From positions 744,001-808,000 of the forward strand of contig NZ_AP024488.1 of the NCBI RefSeq assembly GCF_021654575.1: DNA of 64,000 nucleotides, written 5' to 3'. Numbering within the stretch: position 1 is the stretch's first letter; the number at the start of each line of letters is the position of its first letter. The stretch comes from Desulfoluna limicola. Lineage in GTDB: Bacteria; Desulfobacterota; Desulfobacteria; Desulfobacterales; Desulfolunaceae. The notes beneath the pieces are model-generated. The model searched no databases and had not been told where the DNA came from. It saw only the letters and a list, made by a program, of their open reading frames with translations. Below, one piece after another: positions 37,082 through 45,798 of the stretch. A program made the translations under genes and the position numbers.

Positions 37082-38371
37082 ATGGGTACAAAATCAAAAG
37101 CGCTTTTTGACCGGGCACAGGCCGTGATCCCCGGTGGTGTGAACAGCCCGGTTAGGGCCTGCAAGTCTGTGGGATGTGACCCCCTTTTCATTGAACGTGC
37201 CAAAGGCGCCAACGTGTATGATGCCGACGGCAACGGATACCTTGACTATGTGGGATCCTGGGGTCCCATGATTCTGGGCCACGCCCCTGAGCGGGTGAAT
37301 GCCGTCTTGAGGGATGCCATTGAAAAAGGAACCAGCTTCGGCGCCCCCACCGAGCTGGAGATCGACCTGGCGGAGCTGGTGATCGATACCGTAAAATCCG
37401 TGGACGTGGTGCGCATGGTCAACTCCGGCACCGAGGCAACCATGAGCGCCATCCGCCTTGCCCGTGGCTTTACCGGTCGGGACATTGTGATCAAGTTCGA
37501 CGGCTGCTACCATGGCCATGCCGACTCCTTTCTCGTGGCGGCGGGCTCTGGGGTGGCGACCTTTAATATCGCAGGAAGCCCCGGCGTTCCTGACGACACC
37601 ATCAAGCACACCCTCTCCATCCCTTACAACGACATCGAGAAGGTGCGTGAGGTGATGACCAAGATGGGGGATAAAGTCGCGTGCATCATCGTGGAGCCCA
37701 TTGCCGGCAACATGGGCTTTATCAAGCCCAAGAACGACTTTCTTAAGGTGCTTCGGGAAGAGACCGAAAAGCATGGGGCGCTTCTTATTCTTGACGAGGT
37801 GATGACCGGTTTTCGCGTGGCCCTGGGCGGCGCCCAGGAACTGTTCGGTGTGACCCCGGACCTCACCACCATGGGCAAGGTCATCGGCGGGGGCCTTCCC
37901 GTGGGCGCCTACGGTGGTCGTGCCGATATCATGGCTCAAATCTCTCCCTGTGGACCTGTCTACCAGGCGGGCACCCTTTCCGGTAACCCCCTGGCCATGG
38001 CCGCGGGCATCGAGACCCTGAAAGCGATCCGCGAGCCCGGTTTTTACGAGGCCCTCACCGAAAAGACCACCCGTCTGGTCAACGGCCTTGCCGGTGCCGC
38101 CGGGAAAGCGGGCATCCCCCACACCGCCGATACCGCAGGTTCCATGTTCGGACTCTACTTTACGGGCATGGACGTGGCCAACTTCGAGGACGCCAAAACC
38201 TCCAACCTCGATCTCTTCAGCGCCTACTACCGACGCATGCTCGAAGAGGGGGTCTATCTCGCTCCCTCTCAGTTCGAGGCAGGCTTCGTCTCCGCCGCCC
38301 ATACCGATGAAGACATCGACGCCACCATCGCCGCCGCCACAAAGGTGCTGGCCGAATTAGCCAGGGGGTAA
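37082..38371 (+). CDS. hemL: Glutamate-1-semialdehyde 2,1-aminomutase
   Basis: PLP enzyme making 5-aminolevulinate from glutamate-1-semialdehyde in the C5 haem pathway. 429 residues, complete. Motifs: [18 protein letters not shown] at the N terminus, [17 protein letters not shown] (113-129), [26 protein letters not shown] and the PLP lysine K266 in [17 protein letters not shown]. Thr and Ser contacts are intact. The final LARG and the TAA come from the abutting TIR12-type element (GCCAGGGGGTAACCCCCTGG), so the stop codon lies in a hairpin. Apparently monocistronic. Confidence 0.97.
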
Positions 38372-38721
38372 CCCCCTGGACCCCAGGTTTGCGAATGCTC
38401 CCGCCCCTCGTTCCTCGGGTCGATCACATTCGCTGACGGGCTGTGCCCGTGGGACCATGTTCGTTGTTGCAGCCTTTGCAGGGGAATATTCCCTGCAAAG
38501 GCTGTGCGAAGGCGTAAACGGGTCGAAAGCTGATGGCGAATGCAATGTGTCCCTCGTTTCAGAGAGCACATTTCATTCGTGTTTGAGTGACCCCTCAGTA
38601 ACGAGATCTAACGATAGCCGTCTGATCAGACTGATCCGACGGATTCACAGCCCATGCCCCCTGTGTTACCCCTGCGCAACCGCAACCTGCTTTCGAGGTG
38701 GCACACCTCGCCGCCGGAGGC
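38356..38721. repeat. TIR12 hairpin element, copy 17 (overlaps hemL stop)
   Basis: Starts inside hemL with GCCAGGGGGTAACCCCCTGG (38360-38379; the left 12-mer is absent), followed by GCGAATGCTCCC, the loop module CCC-CTCGTTCCTC-GGG (about 38404-38419), CATTCGC, ACGGGCTGTGCCCGT (38436-38450), a separate long palindrome CCTTTGCAGGGAATATTCCCTGCAAAGG (as two 14-base arms at 38474-38501) and the right end GAGGTGGCACACCTC plus GCCGCCGGAGGC (38695-38721). It spans nearly all of the hemL-mpl gap. Confidence 0.88.
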
Positions 38722-38755
38722 AAAGGTTTTATAAAAGGCAAAAAAAGGAACTCGC

Positions 38756-40231
38756 GTGCAGCAGACACCTCCCCATTATCTTGATCCGTTGTTGAATGGT
38801 ATCCCGGAAGGGGTGCGTCGTGTCCACCTTATCGCTGTGTGTGGTACCGGCATGGGGGCCTTGGCCTTGATGTTGAAGGAAGCCGGCATGGAGGTGACCG
38901 GCTCCGATGCGGGAATTTACCCGCCCATGAGCGATTTGCTCAGAGATAGCGGTATCACGCTTTATGAGGGGTTTAAACCGGAGCATATCGGGGATGTGGA
39001 CCTTGTGGTGGTGGGCAACGCCGTGCGCAAGGAGAATCCCGAGGCAATGGCTGTGGGCGAGCGGCGGCTGTCTTACTGCTCGTTTCCCCAGGCGGTGGCC
39101 GGTTTTTTTGGCCGGGGCAAGCGCACGGTGGTGGTGTCCGGCACCCATGGAAAGACAACCACCTCCTCCATGATGGCCTGGGTGCTGGAGTATGCAGGGC
39201 TCAATCCCAGCTTTATGATCGGTGGGGTGCTGCATAATTTTTCCTCAAACTGCAAGGTGGGGGAAGGCGATTTTCTGGTGGTGGAAGGGGACGAATACGA
39301 CACGGCCTTTTTCGACAAGGGGCCCAAGTTTTTGCACTACGACCCCGAGGTGACGATTCTGACCAGTGTGGAGTTTGATCACGCCGATATTTTTCGGGAC
39401 CTTGCTCATGTGATGTCGGCCTTTTCTGCCTTCCTGGCAAGGCACCGGCCGGAGGCGGCGGTGGTGGCAGGGCCGGGGGCGAATGTGGCCCACGTCACAG
39501 CCAACGCCCCCTGTGATGTGTTACCTTACGGCTTTGCCGGTAAACCTCTCTGGCGCCCGGAAGTTCTGAATGACACAGCGCCGGAGACGACATTTCGCCT
39601 TTTTCACGGTGATGCGCTTTTCGGCGACTACTCCCTTCCCATGCCCGGGGGGCATAATGTGGAAAATGCCGTTTCCGTCATTGCTGCCTGTGATCGGCTT
39701 GGGTTGGATTCAAAGCTGGTGGCCGAGGCCCTTGCGTCATTCAAAGGGGTGAAGCGCCGGCAGGAGATTCGCGGGGAGGTGGACGGTGTGGTGGTGATGG
39801 ACGATTTTGCCCACCACCCAACAGCGGTGGCCAGCACCCTTGCGGCGGTCCGCTCCTTCTATAGAGATCACAGGCTGGTGGCCATTTTTGAGCCCCGGAC
39901 CAATTCGAGCATGCGCGATGTGTTTCAGGATGCCTATGCCCATGCGTTTGAAGCAGCAGACCTTATTTGTGTTCGAACGCCACCGCACCCGGAGAAGGTG
40001 CCCGAAGGGGAACGCTTTTCATCAGAGGCATTGGTGGCGGCCCTGAACGTCTCCGGGAAAGAGGCTCTCCTGTTTTCCGATGCCGATGCCATTGTCTCTT
40101 TTTTTGAGGACAATGCACGTTCCGGAGACCTTCTTATGGTGATGTCCAACGGTGGTTTTGAAGGCATTCATGGCAAGCTTCTTTCCATGCTGGAGGCAAA
40201 ACGTGAGACCGTGGAGTATCCCTCCACCTGA
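38756..40231 (+). CDS. mpl: UDP-N-acetylmuramate:L-Ala-gamma-D-Glu-meso-Dap ligase
   Basis: Mur-ligase that re-attaches recovered tripeptide to UDP-MurNAc for peptidoglycan recycling. 491 residues. Domain 1 has VHLIAVCGTGMGALALML (23-40), domain 2 the ATP loop SGTHGKTTTSS (128-138) with EGDEYDTAFFDKGPKFLHY and TSVEFDHADIFRD, and domain 3 MDDFAHHPTAVASTLAAVR and FEPRTNSSMRDVFQ. The EYDTAFFDKGPKF stretch distinguishes Mpl from MurC. GTG start with GGAA upstream. The operon with the cyclase gene downstream is separate: 217 bases and a promoter-like sequence intervene. Confidence 0.95.
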   Translation: MQQTPPHYLDPLLNGIPEGVRRVHLIAVCGTGMGALALMLKEAGMEVTGSDAGIYPPMSDLLRDSGITLYEGFKPEHIGDVDLVVVGNAVRKENPEAMAVGERRLSYCSFPQAVAGFFGRGKRTVVVSGTHGKTTTSSMMAWVLEYAGLNPSFMIGGVLHNFSSNCKVGEGDFLVVEGDEYDTAFFDKGPKFLHYDPEVTILTSVEFDHADIFRDLAHVMSAFSAFLARHRPEAAVVAGPGANVAHVTANAPCDVLPYGFAGKPLWRPEVLNDTAPETTFRLFHGDALFGDYSLPMPGGHNVENAVSVIAACDRLGLDSKLVAEALASFKGVKRRQEIRGEVDGVVVMDDFAHHPTAVASTLAAVRSFYRDHRLVAIFEPRTNSSMRDVFQDAYAHAFEAADLICVRTPPHPEKVPEGERFSSEALVAALNVSGKEALLFSDADAIVSFFEDNARSGDLLMVMSNGGFEGIHGKLLSMLEAKRETVEYPST

Positions 40232-40330
40232 TGACCTCCCATGCGGGGCCTGTGACTGCAGAATGGTCTCCTTTTCCTTATACTTTTGTTCTTTTACCCC
40301 TGTGCGGAGCGCGGACTCACCGGTTAAACC

Positions 40331-40360
40331 TTGCACCCCAAAGAGTTATCGTACTAATAT
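40331..40360 (+). promoter_or_regulatory. Candidate sigma70 promoter of the cyclase operon
   Basis: TTGCAC at 40331-40336, an 18-base spacer, and TAATAT at 40355-40360, about 88 bases before the cyclase ATG in A+T-rich DNA. Match to consensus is good at both boxes (one and two differences), but it is unproven. Confidence 0.5.
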
Positions 40361-40447
40361 CGAGTGATAATTAAATGACGGCCTCACGGCAGTAAACGAT
40401 GTTTTACATTTTATATCTAAATTCAGATGGACGACGGAGCCCACCAT

Positions 40448-42160
40448 ATGTTGAAGACCCTCCGCTCATGGGGCAAGATGGCTTGCGGTGTTTTTACCCG
40501 GCGCAATCGCGATGATATGATCATTGGCGAGGTGTTGATCACCCGCAACGTGGTCAGTCGCAAAGAGCTGGATACAGCCCTGGATGTTCAGAGAGACAAG
40601 TTGTTTCAGCGGGGCGTGGCCGTGCCTTTGGGCAAGGTGATCGTGGAGCTTGGGTACGCCACGGAAGACGATATCGTCCAGGCGGTCAACGAGCATTACC
40701 GCATCCATGTGACCTCCCTGTCCGACAACATCCGGGGCTTGATTCGCCGAATAGGCGACTCCTTGAACGAGGAGGTCCCCGCACCGCGGGTACCCATCTG
40801 GCTCCAGCTTTCCATCACCATGATCGTTGTGATGCTTCTCACCGTCGGGCTCTTGAGTTATGTAATTCTGGAACGCCAGAAGGAGAAGCTCTACAACCAC
40901 GCTGTAAAGCTCGGCATGGTGAGCCTCGGCTACTTTGGCAGCAACGCGAAAATCCCTCTCCTTGAAGACAATATCCTCTCTTTAAATGCCTTGATCAAAA
41001 ACGCCGAAGGGGTGGATGGTCACCTCTATGCCCTGATCGTGGACAACAATGAGGTCATCAAGGCTCATACCGACTCCTCGCAAATCGGAAAGACCATGGT
41101 GCGGTATCCGCCCACAGGGGCTGTGGAGTCACGCGGTGAGGTGACCTACTTTACCCACGACGGTGGAGGGGTGGGGCCGGTTCTGAACATGAGTGTACCC
41201 ATCATCTTCAAGGAGAAACGGCTGGGCGAGGTCCATGTGGGGCTCTCCATCGATTTTATTGACCAGCTCTTCCTTGATGAACGGAGTTTTCTTGTTATCA
41301 GTACGATGATCATCTGCTTTATCGGGCTGGTTGTGGCGGTGCTCTTCGGGCGGCGATTTTCCAAACCGATCTCGGGCCTTGTGTTGGCCACCCAGGAATT
41401 TGCCAAGGGAAATTACAGCCACCGGGTGGACAGCCGTCGAAATGATGAACTGGGCCGCCTGGCAACCGCCTTCAACCGCATGGGCAAGGAGTTGTTCAAA
41501 CAGTCCATGATGCGGGAGTCCTTCGGCAAGTATGTGGGATCCGATGTTCTGGAGCTCATCTTGCGAAACCCTGAGACCACCTGGCTCAAAGGGCGAAAGA
41601 ATCAGGCCACGGTTCTTTTTGCCGACATCCGGGGCTTTACGGCCTACACCGAGACGCGCCCTCCGGAGGTTCTGGTGGAGGAACTCAACCAATACTTTGA
41701 AATTGCCACCACCATTATCCTCAAGCACGGGGGGTACGTGGACAAATTTATAGGTGATGCGGTGCTGGCGGTTTTTGGTGTGCCCGTCAACTACGAAAAC
41801 CATATGGAACGCTGTATCCGGGCCGCTGTCGAGATGCAGAAAGCCTTCAAGCAGGCCGGTGAATCGGGGCGAAACCCACTTCTGGGCCGTGTGGGAATCA
41901 GCATCAAGAGCGGGGTTGTGGTGGCCGGCAGTATCGGTTCCCAGGCGAAAATGGAGTATACGGTAATCGGAGATACGGTGAATGTCGCGGCTTACATCAA
42001 CGCTCTTGCCGAGGGGGGCGAGATCGTGGTGGGGAGCAGCGTGATGGAACGCCATGGGGACATGCTTGAGGTGGAGTCCCTGGTTCCGCAAAAGATCAAG
42101 GGGCGCTCCGGCCTGGTGGAGGTTTACCGGGTGACAGGGCTTCGGGAATATGGAAAATAG
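40448..42160 (+). CDS. Membrane class III adenylate/guanylate cyclase with N-terminal MshEN-like domain and HAMP
   Basis: 570 residues. Order: MshEN/GspE-N-like module (25-88: IIGEVLITRNVVSRKELDTA, then PLGKVIVELGYATEDDIVQAV), membrane helix 117-141, extracytoplasmic sensor 145-280, membrane helix 281-301, HAMP 301-355 and a class III cyclase domain 385-565. Metal aspartates D393 (FADIRGFT) and D437 (FIGDAVLAVFG) and Asn512 (GDTVN) are present. The transition-state Arg usually four residues after that Asn is Tyr516, which may lower activity. The preceding IGDT context is typical of adenylate cyclases. ATG at 40448 follows GGAG. The stop overlaps nothing, but the next ORF begins four bases later, and four genes are tightly linked. 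Confidence 0.9.
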   Translation: MLKTLRSWGKMACGVFTRRNRDDMIIGEVLITRNVVSRKELDTALDVQRDKLFQRGVAVPLGKVIVELGYATEDDIVQAVNEHYRIHVTSLSDNIRGLIRRIGDSLNEEVPAPRVPIWLQLSITMIVVMLLTVGLLSYVILERQKEKLYNHAVKLGMVSLGYFGSNAKIPLLEDNILSLNALIKNAEGVDGHLYALIVDNNEVIKAHTDSSQIGKTMVRYPPTGAVESRGEVTYFTHDGGGVGPVLNMSVPIIFKEKRLGEVHVGLSIDFIDQLFLDERSFLVISTMIICFIGLVVAVLFGRRFSKPISGLVLATQEFAKGNYSHRVDSRRNDELGRLATAFNRMGKELFKQSMMRESFGKYVGSDVLELILRNPETTWLKGRKNQATVLFADIRGFTAYTETRPPEVLVEELNQYFEIATTIILKHGGYVDKFIGDAVLAVFGVPVNYENHMERCIRAAVEMQKAFKQAGESGRNPLLGRVGISIKSGVVVAGSIGSQAKMEYTVIGDTVNVAAYINALAEGGEIVVGSSVMERHGDMLEVESLVPQKIKGRSGLVEVYRVTGLREYGK

Positions 42161-42164
42161 GGCC

Positions 42165-43130
42165 ATGAAACAGCTTTTGCCAATTCTGCTGTGTGCGGCT
42201 CTTTTTTTCGGGGCATCCTGTGTGTCGCGTCCCTGGCATCGGACGGCCGGGGAGTATGTGGTGGTGCAGCCGGGGCCGACAGAGACCCTTGAGTCGGTGG
42301 CCGAGTCCTTCGGTGGAGGGGAAGCCGGCTTAAAGGCCATTGAAACCTTGAACCCCTCTGAGCTGACCCCGAGAAACACCCCTTTGCTTGTACCGGCAAA
42401 GCCCGCGTACGAGCTGGGGATCCGTTCAGATGGCTACCAGCTGGTCCCCGTTCTTACCTATCGGTGGATGGATGGGGGCGGTGACGGCCCCGATTCGGCT
42501 CGTGTGCAGGCTGATCTTCTGGCGTTAGAGACCGCCGGCTGTCATGTTCTCTCCCCCGACGATTTTCTTGCCTTTATCCGTATGGATCGGTCCATTCCGG
42601 AACGCTCTGTCCTGCTCGCCTTCGAGGTGCACCAAGCTCAAGAATTCAGGGCTCTGATTCCCCATATCTCACGCCCGGGTTTGACCGGGTTGCTTTTTGT
42701 GGCCCCGGATGTTGTGGGAACACAAGGGGCGCTTACCTGGGAAGAGGTCACACATCTTGCCAGTCAGGGGTTTGAACCTTCGCTGATTCCGACAACGGAG
42801 AAGGCGTTGTCCGCCCCTGCTGCCAAAGAGAGTCTGGTGGGGTATGCCCGGCGGGTGAAGGAGGCGATTACCTCTTCGCATGCCCTTCTGGCGGGGCACA
42901 CAAAGACGCCCCTGAGATTTGCCGCATATCCGGACAACCAGGGAAACAGTATCATGGCCTCGGTGCTGGCATCCCTTGGCATGAAAGGAATTTTCAGGCT
43001 GGGGGATGGGGGGAACCCATTCTTTTGTGACAATCTCAGTGTGGTGCGCATGGATGTGGGAGCTCGTGGGGCGGAGGTCCCCGTGACTCGATACCTTGAT
43101 ACCTTCAGGCGTGCGGAGCTGGCATGGTGA
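42165..43130 (+). CDS. Lipoprotein with LysM-like and polysaccharide-deacetylase-like regions
   Basis: 321 residues. Lipobox FFGASC near residues 15-20. A LysM-like unit follows (YVVVQPGPTETLESVAESFG, then AIETLNPSELTPRNTPLLVP). The second half (VPVLTYRWMDGGG, DDFLAFIRMDRSIPERSVLLAFE, SHALLAGHTKTPLRFAAYPD) resembles the NodB/polysaccharide deacetylase barrel, but the metal-binding Asp-Asp and His-x3-His signatures are not evident, so it may be a non-catalytic relative. It starts four bases after the cyclase stop. Probably an outer-membrane or periplasmic partner of the signalling operon. Function inferred weakly. Confidence 0.72.
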   Translation: MKQLLPILLCAALFFGASCVSRPWHRTAGEYVVVQPGPTETLESVAESFGGGEAGLKAIETLNPSELTPRNTPLLVPAKPAYELGIRSDGYQLVPVLTYRWMDGGGDGPDSARVQADLLALETAGCHVLSPDDFLAFIRMDRSIPERSVLLAFEVHQAQEFRALIPHISRPGLTGLLFVAPDVVGTQGALTWEEVTHLASQGFEPSLIPTTEKALSAPAAKESLVGYARRVKEAITSSHALLAGHTKTPLRFAAYPDNQGNSIMASVLASLGMKGIFRLGDGGNPFFCDNLSVVRMDVGARGAEVPVTRYLDTFRRAELAW

Positions 43131-44302
43131 GGCATAAGCAATATGTTGCGGTTTTGAGCTCACTTCTCATGTTTGGGGCTTGCCAGGGGGTGAGACTTCC
43201 CTCGGAACCGGTGCCCTTTCCCGACGCTCTGCAGACAAGGGCTCTGGCCTTAGAGGCGCGTGGTGATACCACTGCGGCCATAAGGTATTGGGAGGCAGCC
43301 TCTGCGGTGTCTGCCGAGAAAGTAACGGCCCTTCATGCCCTTCGGCGAGAGCGCATTGAGACGGAGCTGCTGGCCTCGGAAAAGGCCCTTGCCGAAGGAG
43401 ACGGGGGGCAGGCCATTACCCACCTTTTGAAGGTGCTGCGCATGGAGCCCTCCCATGCTGAAGCCAAGGAGCGGCTTCGAGGCACCCTTTCCCGCAGCCT
43501 GGTCATGCCCTATACCGTCTATGGTGGTGAGTCCGCTGACACCATTGCGGGGCGGGCGTACAAAAATGTGCGGCTGGCTCCCTTGATAGAGGTGCTTTAC
43601 GGTCGTGACGCCAAAAAGGGGCAGGTGTACTGGCTCCCCAGTGTGGAAGCATCTCTGGTTGCGGCCCAGTTCAGCTACACCAGGGCAATTTCCAGGGCAC
43701 GGAAGGATTACACGGCAGAATCCTGGGGCGATCTGCTGGCCGCGTCCGAGGAGATTCTCAGCTATGCCCCGGGTGATAAGGAGGCTCTGTTTTTAAAGAA
43801 CACAGCCGCTCACAACCTGGCTGAGGCGCTGTTTCAGGAGGGCGACTACCGGGAGGCTCTGGGCATGTATCGTCGGGTGGATGCCTATTTCAGAAATGAA
43901 AAGCCACGAATAGAGGAGATCCTTTCTATTCAAAAAAGCCTTCGGGACGAGGCCCGGGCACGCAAAAACGCCACGTTGCTGGAGGAAGCGATCCTCCTTG
44001 AGAAAAAGGGGGCCCTCGTGGCGGCTCGAAATGTGCTGAATACGGTGGATAAAGGGGTTCCCGGGCGCATTGACCTGGAACGGCGGCTCACCAGGAGAAT
44101 GAACAGGCTGGCCGAAGTGCACTATCGGGCCGGGGTCCAACTCTTCCTTGAAGAGAATCTGGTCGGGGCCATTGCCGAGTGGGAGAGAAGCCTTGAGTTG
44201 AACCCCGGGCATATCAAAGCCGGTGATGGGGTGGAGAATGCCATGCGACTGCTTGAAAAGGTGAAAGGCATTGAGCTGAAGAAGAGGGAGAAACAACCAT
44301 GA
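43124..44302 (+). CDS. TPR/LysM-like repeat lipoprotein
   Basis: 392 residues. Lipobox LLMFGAC (about 14-20) marks a lipoprotein. TPR-like helical pairs are at about 37-70 (RALALEARGDTTAAIRYWEA), 80-115 (LAEGDGGQAITHLLKVLRME), 225-260 (NLAEALFQEGDYREALGMYR) and near the end (LFLEENLVGAIAEWERSLEL). A LysM-like insertion (YTVYGGESADTIAGRAYKNV, then GQVYWLPS) lies around 127-170. It overlaps the previous gene by seven bases and the next by four, so all are co-translated. Likely a periplasmic scaffold or peptidoglycan-associated protein; the partner is unknown. Confidence 0.82.
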   Translation: MVRHKQYVAVLSSLLMFGACQGVRLPSEPVPFPDALQTRALALEARGDTTAAIRYWEAASAVSAEKVTALHALRRERIETELLASEKALAEGDGGQAITHLLKVLRMEPSHAEAKERLRGTLSRSLVMPYTVYGGESADTIAGRAYKNVRLAPLIEVLYGRDAKKGQVYWLPSVEASLVAAQFSYTRAISRARKDYTAESWGDLLAASEEILSYAPGDKEALFLKNTAAHNLAEALFQEGDYREALGMYRRVDAYFRNEKPRIEEILSIQKSLRDEARARKNATLLEEAILLEKKGALVAARNVLNTVDKGVPGRIDLERRLTRRMNRLAEVHYRAGVQLFLEENLVGAIAEWERSLELNPGHIKAGDGVENAMRLLEKVKGIELKKREKQP

Positions 44303-45219
44303 CATCGGATCTGGTCACCATGGAGTCCCATGAGGCCGTGCGCAAAGAGGTGCGCTCTCTCTTTCGGCTGGTCTGGCCTGGAGGCGAGCAATCCCTGCTG
44401 GATGAGGCCTGGGGAGATGTGGTGCGCCTCTACAATGGAGAGTGGCCGGGTTACCACCCCTGTGACACCCCGTACCATAATCTGAGTCACGTGATGACGG
44501 TTACACTGGCCATGGCGCGCCTTCTCCACGGGGCGGTGCTGGACGGGCACCGCGTACCGGAGAAAGACGGGCTCCTTTGTCTGATGGCGGCGCTCTTTCA
44601 TGACGCAGGGCTGATTCGGAAAATGGATGACCCTGAAATTCGAGGGGCTGAGCTCACGGTAGAGCATGTGGCGCGGGGCATGGCGATGATAGAAACCTAT
44701 CTCGGACAGCGGGGCTGGGGAGAGGAGGCCTGCAGCTTTGTGCGTTCATTGATTGCCTGTACCGAGCTTGCGGCCGACTCCTTTCTTATCCATTTTCAGA
44801 CCGACGACCAGAGATACCTTGGCGCGCTTTTGAAGGCTGCGGACCTTGCCGGACAGATGGCTGATATGCGTTACGGGGAAAAGATTCTACTCCTTGCTCA
44901 AGAGCTTCAGGACTCTGAAAAAGAGATGTTTATAGGGGAGAAAGCGCTTTTGGAAAACTCCCCGGCTTTTTGCAGGCAGATTTTAGAGGGCATGGTGGAC
45001 GGTTCCGGCAAGAGTGTGCTGGACCATTTTCAGTCTCATTTTCGAGTGTACCGGGGGATCGATCGGAACGTCTATACCGACCAGATTCGTTGGCAGATTT
45101 GCTTTCTGGAAGAGGTGATTACCAAAGGCGGTGACGGGTACCGGGAGGCCCTTCGAATCGGCCCTGTGAAAATGGGTTGTCCCCCCCATGATTTCGATGC
45201 TATATATCCAAAAGAGTAA
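44299..45219 (+). CDS. HD-domain phosphohydrolase resembling class I cyclic-nucleotide phosphodiesterase
   Basis: 306 residues, cytoplasmic. PYHNLSHVMTV (58-68, metal ligands H60 and H64) and ALFHDAGL (98-105, H101 D102) with a later Asp182 in KAADLAGQ form an HD metal site. The YHN-x2-H signature is the one used by class I 3',5'-cyclic nucleotide phosphodiesterases. The HD-x2-HPG continuation of that class is missing, so the substrate remains open. Overlap with the upstream TPR gene by four bases and linkage to a cyclase suggest it degrades the cyclase product, but this is inference. Confidence 0.82.
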   Translation: MTSDLVTMESHEAVRKEVRSLFRLVWPGGEQSLLDEAWGDVVRLYNGEWPGYHPCDTPYHNLSHVMTVTLAMARLLHGAVLDGHRVPEKDGLLCLMAALFHDAGLIRKMDDPEIRGAELTVEHVARGMAMIETYLGQRGWGEEACSFVRSLIACTELAADSFLIHFQTDDQRYLGALLKAADLAGQMADMRYGEKILLLAQELQDSEKEMFIGEKALLENSPAFCRQILEGMVDGSGKSVLDHFQSHFRVYRGIDRNVYTDQIRWQICFLEEVITKGGDGYREALRIGPVKMGCPPHDFDAIYPKE

Positions 45220-45342
45220 CCAGATCGTCTGAAAACAATCGTACGAATGATACCGTATCAGGCCCAGCGGCACTGCTGAGGACAGATCGTCCGATCCAAA
45301 TCATACACATAAACTGATCGGTGCAAAGGAGACAGGGACCCT

Positions 45343-45798
45343 ATGGAAGTACTGGCTTGGGATGATTCCTTCAAGATACAGATTCCACTGATTGACGAAC
45401 GCAATCAGCGCTTTATGGAGATTGCTGCGAAGCTCGAAGAGCTCAATGCCGTCAAACGAAAAAAAGAAGAGGATTTCGACAACATTGGCGAAGCCCTTGC
45501 CGATATCATGGAATTCGCCAGGATGCACTTCAATGAAGAAGAAAAAGTTCTGGTGGGCAAGCAGTACCCCGAACTGAACCAGCACAAGCGGGAACACAAG
45601 AAGTTCATCAAAAAAATAATGGCATTCCGTCGTCTTTTTTCCGAAGACCCCGGAAAAGTTGCCGACGAAGCCTTGAAGTACGTCAAATCTTGGCTTCCCT
45701 GGCATATCAAGGAGCTGGATGCCCGTTATGCCCCCTTTATTCGCGTGCAGAACTACCTGGCTGAGTGCCAGGCCATGGGGCGCCGCGGACGCAGCTGA
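45343..45798 (+). CDS. Bacteriohemerythrin-like protein lacking the first His ligand
   Basis: 151-residue four-helix hemerythrin fold: AWDDSFKIQIPLIDERNQRF, MHFNEEEKVL, NQHKREHKKF and WLPWHIKELDARY. Ligands H62, E66, H81, H85, H121 and D126 match the diiron site. The histidine normally in the DxQH motif is Asn21 (DERNQ). The protein may therefore bind iron differently or hold a modified site. Hemerythrins bind O2 or NO and aid O2 sensing or detoxification in anaerobes. It sits 123 bases after the cyclase operon and has its own terminator, so it is probably a separate unit. Confidence 0.88.
   Translation: MEVLAWDDSFKIQIPLIDERNQRFMEIAAKLEELNAVKRKKEEDFDNIGEALADIMEFARMHFNEEEKVLVGKQYPELNQHKREHKKFIKKIMAFRRLFSEDPGKVADEALKYVKSWLPWHIKELDARYAPFIRVQNYLAECQAMGRRGRS

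Follow-up and report, generated by a model that had tools for sequence, protein, structure and literature searches.

A conserved sensor cyclase-lipoprotein gene trio with a phosphodiesterase-like HD protein added in Desulfoluna

The window analyzed here, a stretch of 64,000 nucleotides from the marine sulfate reducer Desulfoluna limicola, contains four consecutive genes on the forward strand between positions 40448 and 45219. These encode a sensor cyclase of 570 amino acids (40448..42160), two lipoproteins (42165..43130 and 43124..44302), and an HD metalloprotein (44299..45219). All four open reading frames were verified as described in the initial annotation, and so were their spacings of +4, −7, and −4 bases; the overlaps suggest that the genes may be co-translated. 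An alternative in-frame ATG for the cyclase lies at 40427, 21 bases upstream, but 40448 is taken as the start because it has the better Shine-Dalgarno sequence and agrees with the starts of the orthologues. A further in-frame ATG for lipoprotein 1 is found at 42150. Promoter and terminator predictions inside the operon were near shuffle expectation and gave nothing informative. Within the genus Desulfoluna, dN/dS is 0.05-0.07 for the cyclase, the most constrained of the four genes, 0.19-0.30 for lipoprotein 1, 0.15-0.25 for lipoprotein 2, and 0.14-0.22 for the HD gene, so that all four are under purifying selection. The neighbors, considered as context only and assigned with the help of synteny, are also on the forward strand: upstream lies mpl (38756..40231), for the UDP-MurNAc:tripeptide ligase of peptidoglycan recycling (TIGR01081, 388.2 bits against a cut-off of 388.7), and downstream a bacteriohemerythrin gene (45343..45798; NF033749, 99.7 bits).

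In the cyclase, an MshEN-like domain (residues ~25-85) is followed by a transmembrane segment, a periplasmic single Cache 3 domain, a second transmembrane segment, HAMP, and the class III cyclase domain. The claim of a class III domain behind HAMP and a sensor is well founded, since PF00211 scores 93 bits against a cut-off of 21.9, and both HAMP (PF00672, 51 bits) and sCache_3_2 (PF17203, 42.5 bits) exceed their curated cut-offs. At an E-value of 1e-5 or lower, the cyclase domain moreover matches 52 PDB sequences. The further claim that this gene makes a cyclic nucleotide is less certain. Both metal-binding Asp residues, the adenine-specifying Lys and Asp, and the Asn of class III enzymes are kept; judging from the two adenine-specifying residues, the product is probably cAMP, and the genome itself holds 11 matches to cNMP-binding domains, i.e., possible receptors. 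Nevertheless, alignment with the CyaB, CyaB2, and OaPAC structures places a Tyr where class III cyclases have the transition-state Arg of VNxAxR (VNVAAYIN, 41981..42004, forward strand), and activity is consequently uncertain. This replacement had gone unmentioned in the initial annotation.

The same Tyr is found in four other Desulfoluna genomes, Lys takes its place in two sister genera, and His in a further Desulfoluna genome (G117) and one distant genome. The Arg is retained in nearly all trio cyclases outside the family and in the two other alignable cyclases of the D. limicola genome. Its loss throughout the family might mean that the Desulfoluna cyclase is dead or nearly so and acts as a nucleotide-binding switch or scaffold, leaving the HD protein as the sole active enzyme; the strong constraint on the cyclase would fit such a conserved non-catalytic role as well. 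We nonetheless regard this as rather unlikely: a site that died long ago would tend to lose the metal Asp pair, the adenine-specifying residues, and the Asn, and Gln, His, Tyr, or Cys has been described at the phosphate-binding Arg position of other cyclase-like proteins (PMC4886424). With CyaB/CyaB2-type cyclases that carry Cache-HAMP sensors, the window protein shares the catalytic fold, the kept residues, and the HAMP-linked membrane sensor; it differs from them in the Tyr, in its N-terminal MshEN-like domain, and in its fixed operon with two lipoproteins. An anti-phage Pycsar system was considered and rejected, as the generic cyclase domain alone matches PycC (75 bits) and the other three proteins match no defence model.

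The second gene encodes a lipoprotein with a LysM-like segment and, as the initial annotation overlooked, a degenerate polysaccharide deacetylase domain of the NodB/PgaB type. The window copy matches the PgaB model with 20.9 bits, and its relatives match PF01522 with 74-97 bits. At the four Asp-Asp and His-x3-His positions that provide the metal and catalytic residues, the window copy has E, V, I, and E, so that all four are lost. These residues are intact in many relatives, while most cyclase-linked copies have lost at least one. Lipoprotein 1 thus shares domain family and lipoprotein location with the PgaB/IcaB/NodB deacetylases (CE4), and many of its orthologues share the catalytic residues too, but it differs from them in its LysM-like N-terminus and, in the window, in its missing site. 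An AlphaFold model of this protein, built on an alignment of only three sequences, reached a pLDDT of 52 and was discarded. Lipoprotein 2 has a LysM-like segment between flanking TPR repeats. The repeats, also claimed before, were confirmed (PF07719, 46.8 bits, over the curated cut-off), whereas LysM falls below Pfam detection in both lipoproteins of the window and is detected in relatives, at 36 and 28 bits for those of lipoprotein 2.

The kinship of lipoprotein 1 with PgaB and NodB, the LysM segments, and the adjoining mpl of the Desulfolunaceae could also be read as signs of a wall or polysaccharide modification operon, with lipoproteins that handle a glycan by processing or threading it and a cyclase confined to regulating this local machinery. 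This appears improbable given the loss of deacetylase residues, and casual inspection noticed no glycosyltransferase or exporter gene recurring with the trio.

The order cyclase-lipoprotein 1-lipoprotein 2 recurs, with overlaps, in 26 other Desulfobacterales genomes from 20 genera and in six genomes outside Desulfobacterales. Hence, the proposed association between a Cache-HAMP cyclase and two envelope lipoproteins is conserved, but the four-gene order does not extend beyond Desulfoluna. The HD gene is present in all six Desulfoluna genomes, five of which have the four-gene order, and it occurs in this operon only in that genus. The conserved unit is therefore the first three genes, not four, and this trio is ancient. 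Upstream, mpl is found in all Desulfolunaceae examined and not elsewhere; downstream, bacteriohemerythrin directly follows the trio in sister genera, and the HD gene intervenes in Desulfoluna. No paper describing the trio was found in a literature search.

A natural experiment is provided by G117, which lacks both lipoproteins and still has the HD gene beside the cyclase. Its cyclase has lost the MshEN-like domain together with HAMP and shares 53-56% identity with its orthologues, which are themselves 81-96% identical to each other; its HemL, Mpl, and HD proteins show normal distances. We count this genome in favor of a lipoprotein-cyclase module.

In some relatives, the lipoprotein pair accompanies other outputs. 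For instance, it occurs at one locus (L150) with an sCache Ser/Thr kinase, itself carrying sCache_3_2, a PP2C phosphatase, and an FHA-cyclase, at another (L124) beside a HAMP-SpoIIE protein, and at two more (L125 and L196) in T6SS clusters with FHA. Consequently, the pair looks like a reusable envelope input. By functional analogy, it may be compared with the T6SS threonine-phosphorylation pathway (PpkA/PppA/Fha, TagQRST), where envelope lipoproteins feed a transmembrane kinase, PP2C, and FHA and in whose clusters related lipoproteins occur; the kinase, PP2C, FHA, and T6SS core are absent from the window operon. A T6SS link of the window itself was rejected, as the sheath gene VipB was not found in the genome. 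A broader and quite tentative reading is that a reusable periplasmic pair serves cyclic nucleotide, Ser/Thr phosphorylation, SpoIIE phosphatase, and T6SS outputs, and is here closed by a class I-type phosphodiesterase (PDE) that removes the cyclase product.

The fourth protein matches PF01966 with 24.8 bits against a cut-off of 22. The YHN-x2-H and HD metal site attributed to it is present, and H60, H64, H101, D102, and D182 are invariant in 33 homologues. Its AlphaFold model (pLDDT 86, pTM 0.89) has the all-helical PDE fold, and class I PDEs account for all of the best 50 among 565 PDB matches (E from 4.9e-4, probability 0.99-1.00, TM-scores 0.36-0.56). The H/H/HD/D ligands are also present, with D182 the probable counterpart of the downstream Asp. 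Together with the invariant residues, the modeled fold strengthens the predicted role as a cyclic-nucleotide PDE. An HD-GYP c-di-GMP phosphodiesterase was rejected, with no HD-GYP match in Pfam and none among the best 50 PDB matches. In common with PDE5, PDE9, PDE10, TbrPDEB1, and TcrPDEC1, the protein has YHNxxH, HD, and a downstream Asp at similar spacing. It differs from these enzymes in its low identity (12-18%) and in its motif, HDAGL, which lacks the second His of HDxxH; PF00233 scores remain under the cut-off of 24.8 (17.4 bits in the window, 21.7 in G117), and inspection of the C-terminal part of the alignment revealed no equivalent of the purine-binding Gln. Furthermore, it is bacterial, whereas class I PDEs have been described in eukaryotes (PMC8115329, PMC4320098). 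The closest named model is that of the Npun_R2479 family HD metalloproteins (NF045583; E 5e-13 in the window, 2e-17 to 2e-13 in relatives), for which no assigned function was found; the score of 49 bits, well short of the curated cut-off of 400, indicates a distant relative only.

HD homologues are widespread and mostly solitary: 3 of 77 loci have a cyclase no more than 7 kb away, compared with ~1.3 expected, which is not a significant enrichment. This weighs against the self-contained cAMP circuit that had been proposed, and a closed circuit is unproven. It is also what would be seen if the HD protein were a phosphohydrolase of another metabolite (a nucleotide, cyclic dinucleotide, or phosphoester) placed in the operon for co-expression only. 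YHNxxH with HD occurs in other HD phosphohydrolases too, and the missing His and Gln point the same way. This alternative is a serious one, although we hold it to be less than evenly probable: the best-matching PDB structures belong to class I PDEs and not to HD-GYP, Rel, or nucleotidase folds, G117 keeps the HD gene beside its cyclase despite having lost the lipoproteins, and two relatives (L248 and L264) adjoin other, unrelated cyclase families.

We conclude that the locus represents a genuine, conserved module linking the envelope to cyclic nucleotides, to which a PDE-like protein was added at the level of the genus. In the mechanism we propose, the two lipoproteins would sit at the peptidoglycan or outer membrane and act on the cyclase through its periplasmic Cache domain, changing cyclic nucleotide output, probably cAMP. 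In Desulfoluna, what was a deacetylase would now be a decayed subunit that binds glycan or acts as a scaffold, the cyclase would have been retuned by the change from Arg to Tyr and is probably slow, and the added class I PDE-like protein would probably hydrolyze the cyclase product. We infer the lipoprotein-Cache contact, the substrates, and the opposition of cyclase and HD protein, and we give the explanation as a whole about an even chance.

As far as we know, few of the signals acting on class III cyclases have been identified in sulfate reducers and other Desulfobacterota; here a conserved operon couples a sensor cyclase to two envelope lipoproteins, so that simple gene deletions could probe the input. 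Relatives carry this lipoprotein pair together with kinases and T6SS genes, and the decayed deacetylase site and lost cyclase Arg provide natural mutants of both proteins. The HD protein, in turn, belongs to a large family, most of it unstudied; should it hydrolyze cAMP, bacteria would possess a counterpart of the class I PDEs known from eukaryotes.

Finally, the N-terminal domain of the cyclase was missed in the initial annotation. It matches the N-domain of PilF in the PDB (E 7e-9) and the MshE-related model NF053729 with 31.9 bits, under the cut-off of 38. Like the MshEN domains of MshE, PilB, and PilF, it has two motif-like repeats with conserved Gly and several Leu, Val, and Ile residues, but the protein is not an ATPase. 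In the segment IIGEVLITRNVVSRKELDTALDVQ...PLGKVIVELGYATEDDIVQAVNEH (40517..40690, forward strand), comparison with the c-di-GMP receptor motif, two RLG...Q motifs with a five-residue spacer (PMC5013675), shows that both Arg are lost (R to I and R to P), that the second Gln is His, and that the spacer has 11 residues instead of 5. Fusions of MshEN with cyclases have already been listed (PMC5013675).

The four genes that the initial annotation had joined into an envelope-sensing cAMP circuit are borne out on the sequence, all on the forward strand and at the proposed spacing: a sensor cyclase (40448-42160), two lipoproteins (lipoprotein 1, 42165-43130; lipoprotein 2, 43124-44302) and an HD protein (44299-45219), in a genome that is a single contig of 6.26 Mb. 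Pfam confirms the sCache_3_2 sensor, HAMP and class III cyclase domains of the first product, the TPRs of lipoprotein 2, which also has a LysM-like segment mid-protein, and the HD domain of the fourth. Every part of the operon belongs to a known family. The expected conservation of gene order holds for the first three genes, but not for the HD gene outside Desulfoluna. The trio (cyclase, lipoprotein 1, lipoprotein 2), usually with overlaps, recurs in 26 genomes of the order besides the window, from 20 genus-level groups, and, beyond the order, in at least six genomes of the phylum sample (G190, G303, G276, G408, G403 and G251), a lower bound because three candidates were scored per genome. The HD gene follows the trio only in Desulfoluna, with the four-gene order in five of six genomes (in G118 it spans a contig break, both ends of which carry identical lipoprotein 2 sequence). 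There it is inserted between lipoprotein 2 and bacteriohemerythrin, which lies directly 3′ of the trio in the two sister genera, G017 and G082; neither of these has an HD homologue. The context of hemL, mpl (a peptidoglycan recycling ligase gene), trio, HD where present, and bacteriohemerythrin (37082-45798) is largely common to Desulfolunaceae.

One genome, G117, is a Desulfoluna judging by its other genes (88-89% identity to the four closest genomes for HemL, 76-80% for Mpl and 66-69% for HD). At its locus (L142, G117:C147, 4351-6872), both lipoproteins are absent and HD still adjoins the cyclase; across the whole genome, lipoprotein 1 gave no more than a weak 22% match, while the absence of lipoprotein 2 refers to the locus only. 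The fast-diverging G117 cyclase lacks MshEN and HAMP and is only 53-56% identical to orthologues whose mutual identity is 81-96%. From these losses and this divergence, constraint on the cyclase is tied to the lipoproteins, and HD stays with the cyclase.

From its neighbours at other loci, we read the lipoprotein pair as a putative input module. In L150, the pair adjoins a Ser/Thr kinase that has a sensor of the same Cache family, PP2C and an FHA-cyclase, as identified by domain search; in L134 and L151, the same assignment comes from a layout similar to that of L150. In L124, the pair adjoins HAMP-SpoIIE. Lipoprotein homologues also lie within T6SS-type clusters, one that encodes Hcp, TssF, TssG, ClpV and FHA (L125, G048:C249, 1362-11358) and one that has a VipB-like gene together with kinase, PP2C and FHA (L196, G089:C920, 3868-11984). 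In Desulfobacterota, T6SS regulation may therefore receive an input that senses the envelope. The T6SS sheath gene VipB was not found in the window's own genome; of the other five Desulfoluna genomes, four carry one or two copies. The trio with swapped outputs appears undescribed in the literature searched, which mostly excluded subscription journals. L150, L151, L134 and L203 share a divergent cluster, in which the pair (in L203, the deacetylase-fold member alone was seen) lies opposite genes for PP2C, an FHA-cyclase fusion and a putative Ser/Thr kinase with sCache; in the first three, the adenine-specifying Lys of the FHA-cyclase is Asp.

Lipoprotein 1 of the window matches nothing in Pfam up to an E of 1, but NCBIfam PgaB at 20.9 bits. 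Its orthologues clearly belong to the polysaccharide deacetylases (PF01522, 74-97 bits; PgaB at 118 bits in L121; LysM at 23.6 bits in one). In the window protein, the metal and catalytic positions D, D, H and H have become E, V, I and E. Deacetylase sites are intact in 11 cyclase-linked copies versus 24 where they are not (two fragment rows excluded), and in 8 of 8 copies linked to other outputs; these counts come from related sequences, so the events are not independent. Apparent fusions of the deacetylase and TPR/LysM lipoproteins into one protein in two genomes (L146, 6140-8143; L197, 233-3226) would support a physical partnership. In the most likely mechanism, the Cache-HAMP cyclase is set by the lipoproteins, which would sense glycan of the wall or envelope or dock to it, and in Desulfoluna the HD protein would probably hydrolyse the cyclase product. 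The data show the domains, gene order, selection and fold; we infer the contacts, the substrates and the mutual opposition of cyclase and HD protein.

The noted sensor, HAMP and cyclase stand, with the addition of a cytoplasmic N-terminal MshEN-like domain (NF053729, 31.9 bits, below the cut-off of 38) that matches the N-domain of PilF in the PDB (E 7e-9). The c-di-GMP motif consists of two copies of RLGxx(LVI)(LVI)xxG(LVI)(LVI)xxxxLxxxLxxQ separated by five residues (Wang et al., PMC5013675). In contrast, the window segment (IIGEVLITRNVVSRKELDTALDVQ, 11 residues, PLGKVIVELGYATEDDIVQAVNEH) lacks both Arg and the second Gln, and c-di-GMP binding is doubtful. The architecture is not new, since MshEN-cyclase fusions are already listed in PMC5013675. 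The catalytic domain retains the two metal Asp, the Lys and Asp that specify adenine, and Asn; its transition-state Arg is Tyr, in an alignment checked against solved cyclases. This Arg-to-Tyr change is the chief challenge to reading the product as cAMP. Each of the five Desulfoluna genomes that carry the whole operon has Tyr at this position, the two sister genera have Lys, and G117 and one distant genome have His. Nearly all other trio cyclases have Arg (at one distant locus, L183, the alignment breaks down over this position), as do the two other alignable cyclases of the window's own genome. With a dN/dS of 0.05-0.07, the gene is not decaying. Elsewhere among cyclase-like proteins, other residues, Tyr included, are noted at the position of a phosphate-binding Arg (PMC4886424).

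The phosphodiesterase-like character of the HD protein (Pfam HD, 24.8 bits; PDEase_I, 17.4 bits, below cut-off; distant to NF045583 Npun_R2479) is supported by predicted fold and catalytic residues. Its AlphaFold model, built from the window sequence and homologues from genome contigs, has a pLDDT of 86.3 and a pTM of 0.89, and each of the best 50 of 565 PDB matches is a cyclic-nucleotide PDE of class I (TM 0.36-0.56, E from 4.9e-4), with redundancy, as many entries are PDE10. Y59, H60, H64, H101, D102 and D182 are invariant across homologues, which share 29-40% identity and are widespread in Desulfobacterota, occurring also in Nitrospirota, Bacteriovoracaceae and other MAGs. In a profile search, trypanosomal PDEB1 and PDE9 rank top around YHNxxH...HD, not significantly (E 0.11 and up). 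Unlike class I PDEs, however, the protein lacks the second His of HDxxH, and no candidate for their purine-binding Gln was seen. A bacterial class I-like PDE within a cyclase operon also appears undescribed in the literature searched, again mostly without subscription journals. Homologues of the HD protein adjoin unrelated cyclases in L168 (5315-7942), L264 (5521-7891) and L248 (5003-7122): a divergent REC-cyclase in two genomes (74% mutual identity) and a co-directional cyclase in the third.
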